Positions 33,809 through 34,701 of a DNA stretch of 64,000 nt are shown here, one piece after another. A model generated the notes under the pieces. That model was not told the DNA's origin and searched no databases. It saw only the letters and a list, made by a program, of their open reading frames with translations. A program made the translations under genes and the position numbers. Where the stretch lies: contig JAGYIX010000003.1 of the NCBI GenBank assembly GCA_018402205.1, forward strand, positions 496,001-560,000, read 5' to 3'. Position 1 is the first letter of the stretch. The number at the start of each line of letters is the position of its first letter. Origin of the DNA: Flavobacteriaceae bacterium. Its GTDB lineage: Bacteria > Bacteroidota > Bacteroidia > Flavobacteriales > Flavobacteriaceae.

Positions 33809-33817
33809 AGTTTAATC

Positions 33818-33847
33818 AAAAAAAAAGCCCCGAAAAATCGGGACTTT
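33818..33847 (-). terminator. Attenuator terminator immediately upstream of pheA
   Basis: Minus strand AAAGTCCCGA-TTTT-TCGGGGCTTTTTTTTT hairpin; U-tract ends about 9 nt before the pheA ATG. Confidence 0.88.
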
Positions 33848-33882
33848 ATTGTTTTTTGGCACACTAAATGACAAAAGCCCCT

Positions 33883-33942
33883 TTATCGCAATCTGCGGTA
33901 AAAGGTAAAATAGGCAAATGACTTTTGTAGTGTGTTTTTCAT
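33883..33942 (-). CDS. Candidate Phe/Tyr leader peptide MKNTLQKSFAYFTFYRRLR of the aromatic operon attenuator
   Basis: Short ATG-initiated ORF with F-A-Y-F-T-F-Y run, followed by alternative antiterminator/terminator pairings upstream of pheA. Confidence 0.85.
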   Translation of the reverse strand: MKNTLQKSFAYFTFYRRLR

Positions 33943-34083
33943 ATATCGCGCTAAATACAGAAAAGCATTTATAAAAAGCAAGCCTAGTTAGATAATTTCT
34001 TTGAAAAATAGATTTTTTTTGCCGCCTTAAGTTTAGACCAAGCATCAGATTATAGCTATATTGAGGGGTCAAAAAATTGAAGT

Positions 34084-34701
34084 ATGCATATCGCGGTTGC
34101 CGGAAATATAGGTTCAGGAAAGACCACACTAACTGACCTGCTAGCTAAACATTACAAATGGGAAGCTCACTTTGAAGAGGTAATTGCTAATCCGTACCTC
34201 AACGATTTTTACAACCATATGGAGCGCTGGAGCTTCAATCTGCAGGTTTACTTTCTCAACACTAGGTTCAGGCAAGTACTCACTATTCGAGAAGGAGAAA
34301 AAACGGTTATTCAAGACCGAACCATTTACGAAGACGCCTACATCTTTGCGCCAAACCTGCACAGTATGGGGCTAATGACCAATCGCGACTTTGAAAACTA
34401 CCTCAGTTTGTTTGAGCTCATGGAGTCGTTAGTAGATCCGCCCGATATCTTGATTTACCTGAGGAGTTCTATAGAAAACTTGGTCAAACAAATACACAAA
34501 CGCGGAAGACAGTACGAAAGTGGCATATCCATTGACTACCTCAGTCGATTAAACGACCGCTACGAAGAGTTCATAAAAGGATATTCTAAGGGTACTCTTT
34601 TAGTTTTTGATGTAGACGAACTCAATTTTGTAGATAATGTCGAAGACCTAGGGTTTATTGTTAACCGCATCAACGCCGAAATTCACGGACTGTTCAAATA
34701 A
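34084..34701 (+). CDS. Deoxynucleoside kinase
   Basis: MHIAVAGNIGSGKTTLTDLLAKHY (P-loop), QDRTIYEDAYIFA, RGRQYESGISIDYL lid. Confidence 0.92.
   Translation: MHIAVAGNIGSGKTTLTDLLAKHYKWEAHFEEVIANPYLNDFYNHMERWSFNLQVYFLNTRFRQVLTIREGEKTVIQDRTIYEDAYIFAPNLHSMGLMTNRDFENYLSLFELMESLVDPPDILIYLRSSIENLVKQIHKRGRQYESGISIDYLSRLNDRYEEFIKGYSKGTLLVFDVDELNFVDNVEDLGFIVNRINAEIHGLFK

Follow-up and report, generated by a model that had tools for sequence, protein, structure and literature searches.

A probable ribosome-mediated attenuator with a conserved Phe/Tyr leader peptide upstream of the pheA operon in Flavobacteriaceae

Introduction

Classical translation-coupled attenuation is best studied in enterobacteria, where the leader peptide of pheL relies on Phe codons only. 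Candidate attenuators in Bacteroidetes/Chlorobi are said to be mentioned in a 2004 abstract of Vitreschak et al. (FEMS Microbiol Lett 234:357).

In Flavobacterium psychrophilum, structured 5' elements were reported upstream of pheA and hisG that also occur in other Flavobacteriaceae genera and are absent from Rfam, and the same report finds strong indications that amino-acid biosynthesis operons are subject to leader-peptide attenuation (PMC9723704). In Corynebacterium glutamicum the aroR leader, which carries Phe-Tyr-Phe, is reported to respond to Phe, not to Tyr (PMC11802643). Predicted uORFs with notable Phe and Tyr content have been found computationally near shikimate/aromatic-pathway genes (PMC6429828).

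Here we analyse a 64-kb stretch of Flavobacteriaceae DNA (the window), in which a complete-looking attenuator with a mixed Phe/Tyr (F/Y) leader peptide had been predicted before the operon pheA-aminotransferase-tyrA-DAHPS/CM. We consider it highly probable (about 93%) that the element is a classical ribosome-mediated transcription attenuator of this operon. The original prediction had left undecided whether such an element was already described in this lineage. An element at the same position has indeed been reported in F. psychrophilum, whereas the F/Y leader and its pairings are absent from the main text of that report (PMC9723704), the only direct prior work returned by a literature search for a described Bacteroidetes pheA attenuator.

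Results

The gene upstream of the leader is divergent (34084-34701, plus strand), so that the terminator can act on the pheA transcript only. The leader region contains the following features.

33981-33951, minus strand: candidate promoter, TTG (33981-33979), 21 nt, TATTTAG (33957-33951); conserved as a block in the nearest members of the genus
33942-33883, minus strand: leader peptide ORF MKNTLQKSFAYFTFYRRLR with its stop codon, 19 codons, read from the sequence
33934-33922, minus strand: segment 1, CACACTACAAAAG, spanning codons 3-7, ahead of the control codons; from the MFE fold and the 1:2 permutation
33881-33874, minus strand: segment 2', GGGGCTTT, 5' arm of the antiterminator, starting 1 nt past the leader stop; partner 33847-33840
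33877-33860, minus strand: segment 2 (CTTTTGT...AGTGTG), partner of segment 1; from the MFE fold and comparison with relatives
33847-33838, minus strand: segment 3, AAAGTCCCGA, common to antiterminator and terminator
33833-33824, minus strand: segment 4, TCGGGGCTTT, 3' arm of the terminator, in a 10-pair stem with a 4-nt loop
33826-33818, minus strand: U-tract of 9 nt, overlapping the end of segment 4, read from the sequence

The sequence agrees with the original prediction in each of the parts that it named: the 19-codon ORF with 3 Phe and 2 Tyr among 7 codons (F9, Y11, F12, F14, Y15), segments 1, 2' and 3, and a 10-pair terminator hairpin (33847-33824, minus strand) leading into a run of nine T, which ends 9 nt before the pheA ATG (33808). 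Folding, which had been proposed as a check, likewise bears the prediction out. The MFE structure of 33950-33815 reaches -40.8 kcal/mol (z -5.08; equal stability in 0 of 200 shuffles) and holds both the 1:2 and the 3:4 helices, a combination that the model leads us to expect as the ground state without a ribosome. Taken singly the window ORF is borderline evidence and proves little, since 7 of 50 dinucleotide-shuffled versions of the upstream region yield at least that F/Y density. On both strands of the window, a leader enriched in one amino-acid group and combined with a terminator occurs once, at pheA.

Among Rfam models the top-scoring one for the region is RF01859 (Phe_leader), matched over its full length (1-125) at 28.5 bits, where the gathering score is 55; the best of 12 relatives reaches 36.1 bits, also below this threshold. 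RF01692 (Bacteroid-trp) is not among the matches up to E 10 in the leader region, nor is a T-box, and the 64-kb window has no T-box or riboswitch match at the gathering threshold. With no Rfam match above threshold for the pheA leader element, T-box, riboswitch and known Rfam leader are rejected as its identity.

Behind the terminator lie four genes.

33808-32972, minus strand: pheA, prephenate dehydratase (NCBIfam NF008865, 3.9e-50, under the curated cut-off; many homologues)
32975-31827, minus strand: aminotransferase of the LL-DAP/aspartate aminotransferase class (under cut-offs), overlapping pheA by 4 nt
31830-30973, minus strand: tyrA, prephenate dehydrogenase (NCBIfam NF006307, 373.5 bits, cut-off 295)
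30963-29881, minus strand: DAHP synthase/chorismate mutase (NF009239 over residues 18-260, chorismate mutase models over about 268-358, under cut-offs)

These NCBIfam matches support the gene context first proposed, as does the gene order in relatives: 75 of 80 loci have it in full, and five show the first two or three genes only; some of the 80 loci end at contig ends. In relatives rsgA and dtd often lie downstream of the operon. The operon of the window is closely followed, in the same orientation, by rsgA, dtd, a pyrophosphohydrolase-like gene and aroA, so that the reach of the attenuator may extend to aroA. Inside the rsgA coding sequence (29759-29731, minus strand) we observe a perfect 13-pair hairpin followed by a T-rich stretch. 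Its stem is kept with changed bases in four relatives of the genus and is absent from the more distant ones examined; it could be an intra-operon terminator, a processing site or a coincidence of codon use.

The named relatives of the window pheA are Flavobacteriaceae, the nearest being uncultured members, and the assembly comprises 1.68 Mb. We compared 99 Flavobacteriaceae pheA loci from roughly 80 genera. An F/Y-rich leader starting with ATG lies at most 330 nt from pheA in 98 of them; in the 99th (L026), translation of the sequence yields an F/Y leader, MKNNMFNTNYFWQGYFYFFFGKKSERFVM, slightly beyond this distance, and F/Y leader plus terminator are found at all 99 loci examined. Given this conservation within the family, we regard a chance origin of the leader as untenable. 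In a shuffle test that scanned 300 nt, the native F/Y count was reached in 74 of 4950 trials, 45 of these 74 coming from L026, whose leader lies outside the scanned region. Across 97 family loci, 865 F/Y residues fall in frame 0 versus 259 and 392 in the other frames, and both TTT/TTC and TAT/TAC codons are used; being frame-specific and drawing on both codon pairs, the enrichment is not merely a T-run.

The common family leader approximates MTRTYFWNGFYFYFFFKRGTGLF, and the genus of the window has shorter variants (MKNTLQKSFAYFTFYRRLR, MNKTRFYNDFTYFNYYQLER, MFGKNFTYNAYYFAYFSN). On average a family leader carries 5.6 Phe versus 3.3 Tyr codons, with at least one Tyr codon in 97 of 97; a Trp codon is present in 54 of the 97 (codon 7 of the common form) and absent from the window leader. 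Beyond the family, pheA is preceded by F/Y leaders in no fewer than four further families of the order, in five sampled families of the class (f23 among them) and in four genomes that are more distant yet carry a pheA close to that of the window, and the element is present in most other families of the class sampled. We saw no F/Y leader in f13, in f7 (where pheA is remote), in the small f17 genomes or in three of the six f23 loci, nor before remote pheA genes at the loci sampled elsewhere in the phylum.

The original prediction hinged on the leader and on the 2:3 and 3:4 pairings, all of which turn out to be conserved at all or nearly all family loci. It had also pointed to covariation in the pheA upstream regions of relatives, and between lineages segments 2, 3 and 4 do change in concert: CGGGAC/GTCCCG/CGGGAC is one such set, and others are CGAGRC/GTCTCG, CAGGAC/GTCCTG, GGAGCT/AGCTCC, GAGGCTTTT/AAAAGCCTC and CCGGGACT/AGTCCCGG. 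With simple helix scores, a first test of 2:3 and 1:2 separated native pairs weakly from swaps, and duplex energies were used instead. In a between-lineage permutation in which 48 segment-3 types were represented once each, native energies beat permuted ones for 2:3 (-10.5 versus -7.7 kcal/mol) and for 1:2 (-13.0 versus -9.4 kcal/mol), with p at most 0.0005 in both cases, p-values here being guides, as phylogeny is not in the model. Over 105 distinct segment-1 sequences, the 1:2 duplex gives -13.1 versus -9.1 kcal/mol (p 0.0002, to be read in the same way). The 1:2 pairing, too, is therefore kept in relatives, and within the genus of the window its helix is re-formed with quite different sequences: ACAAAAG/CTTTTGT with CACACT/AGTGTG, ATAACGAC/GTCGTTAT, and ACAACGC/GCGTTGT.

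Register points in the same direction. In 45 loci whose leader ends G-L/P/Q/R-F/L/C, and with segment 2 taken at a set distance from the stop codon, the fixed-register 2:3 pairing holds in 94% of cells versus 23-52% when slid by 1-3 nt. Within lineages, permutations were as good as native in 69 of 500 and in 376 of 500 trials, and within the genus of the window, where segment 3 hardly varies, native 2:3 energies do not beat swaps. Since the 2:3 core is nearly invariant there, within-lineage covariation is uninformative, and it is the contrast between lineages that carries the support. A simple scan did not find the 2:3 helix in several further families of the class (e.g. L207, L209).

The distance from the F/Y run to segment 2 is nearly constant, about 30-38 nt. 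Most family leaders have segment 2 (GGGACT) within their final codons; in the genus of the window its start shifts to the stop codon or to a point just past it. Given the size of a ribosome and this spacing, a ribosome at the stop codon would cover segment 2, whereas one stalled early in the F/Y run would not.

Upstream of the leader, the conserved TTG/TATTTAG block may serve as the promoter. Of 97 family leaders, 81 have a related box, TAnnTTwG, ahead of them (7.3 expected), a pattern that the TATTTAG of the window does not exactly fit. Only 8 nt separate the end of the window box from the leader ATG, and 13 other family loci have a similar box that ends 6-10 nt from the ATG; in the window and in some lineages, the transcript from which the leader peptide is translated may thus be nearly leaderless.

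The same genome was inspected individually at its his, trp, ilv and homoserine dehydrogenase loci. Upstream of trpE (L245:1339-1450) lies a Trp leader, MLKNQFISKWWSWSTFRR (KWWSW), followed by a terminator hairpin, in a region with no Rfam match at the gathering score; it is a probable Trp attenuator. Just before hisG (L244, minus strand, 2237-2120), a His leader, MFMIHAHHHFFYCAQAS (HAHHH), is followed by a GGCCCG...CGGGCC hairpin with a T-rich tail, a probable His attenuator. The ilv and homoserine dehydrogenase loci showed no leader paired with a terminator. We count the trpE and hisG leaders in favour of the attenuator reading of the pheA leader.

Discussion

The leader, antiterminator and terminator are conserved and segments 2, 3 and 4 change together, which supports the attenuator logic of the 1:2, 2:3 and 3:4 pairings as originally predicted. 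From this anatomy we infer stalling, the amino acid sensed and the effect on transcription as follows. RNA polymerase would start just upstream of the leader ORF, with a ribosome following. With ample charged tRNA-Phe, and possibly tRNA-Tyr, the ribosome would pass the F/Y codons, reach the stop codon and mask segment 2', whereupon 3:4 would pair and transcription would end before pheA. Under a shortage of charged tRNA, the ribosome would stall at the F/Y codons and presumably mask segment 1, leaving segment 2' free to pair with segment 3, and transcription would proceed into pheA-aminotransferase-tyrA-DAHPS/CM. If the leader went untranslated, 1:2 would form and transcription would terminate.

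Joint sensing of Phe and Tyr is plausible from the codons. The attenuator might, in practice, sense Phe alone, with the Tyr codons as tolerated neighbours: the Phe-Tyr-Phe leader of C. glutamicum aroR is reported to answer to Phe limitation and not to Tyr (PMC11802643), and Phe codons exceed Tyr codons in the family leaders. Yet all 97 leaders hold at least one Tyr codon, with the mean of 3.3 given above, and the operon contains tyrA; we see Phe-only sensing as a real possibility, at odds somewhat worse than even. A broader proposal has an ancient leader, kept across most of the class, sensing Phe, Tyr and Trp at once and gating entry into the aromatic pathway through DAHPS/CM, with a near-leaderless transcript in some lineages. 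Its Trp component derives from the Trp codon seen in just over half of the family leaders, and as a whole we judge it unlikely.

Other readings dispense with the leader peptide altogether. Aromatic genes of other bacteria are controlled by other leader types, and the terminator could in principle serve a T-box, a riboswitch or an RNA-binding protein, the ORF being incidental; but the Rfam searches described above yielded neither T-box nor riboswitch, and the in-frame F/Y leader is conserved at all family loci, which makes a different sensor very improbable. That the hairpin is a plain constitutive terminator or a chance structure, beside a spurious ORF in AT-rich DNA, is hardly credible: an equally dense F/Y ORF does arise in 7 of 50 shuffles of the single window sequence, but against it stand the conservation and coordinated changes across family and class, and the occurrence of this leader/terminator combination nowhere else in the 64 kb. 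On family conservation we reject a chance ORF in AT-rich DNA.

A ribosome-mediated attenuator, then, is how we read the element, and by anatomy it appears to work like pheL and trpL. Throughout Flavobacteriaceae, and in much of the class, the Phe/Tyr operon is likely to have translation-coupled attenuation as its standing control. The element would merit an Rfam family of its own, and the mixed Phe/Tyr leaders offer a natural series for asking whether one leader senses two amino acids.

With enterobacterial pheL-pheA (RF01859) the element shares a leader peptide with control codons ahead of pheA, a choice among three pairings and a U-tract terminator; by the family's own threshold it nevertheless falls outside RF01859. 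It also differs in its mixed Phe/Tyr leader, in a monofunctional pheA that is the first gene of an operon with tyrA and DAHPS/CM, and in the Flavobacteriaceae segment 2', which sits within the final part of the leader ORF or immediately at its end. C. glutamicum aroR-aroF is alike in that a leader with Phe and Tyr codons controls the first aromatic-pathway enzyme, but it belongs to an unrelated phylum and another operon and has only Phe-Tyr-Phe (PMC11802643). The uORFs predicted near aromatic-pathway genes come from five other bacterial genomes, in a text without pairing detail (PMC6429828). Closest is the F. psychrophilum pheA 5' element, from the same family and at the same gene, conserved in other genera and without an Rfam match; it is likely identical with the window-type leader, although the main text on pheA does not describe an F/Y leader or its pairings (PMC9723704). 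The mechanism is thus ordinary rather than new, and the pheA element was partly anticipated by that report; our additions are its conservation across family and class, the coordinated changes and the leader consensus.
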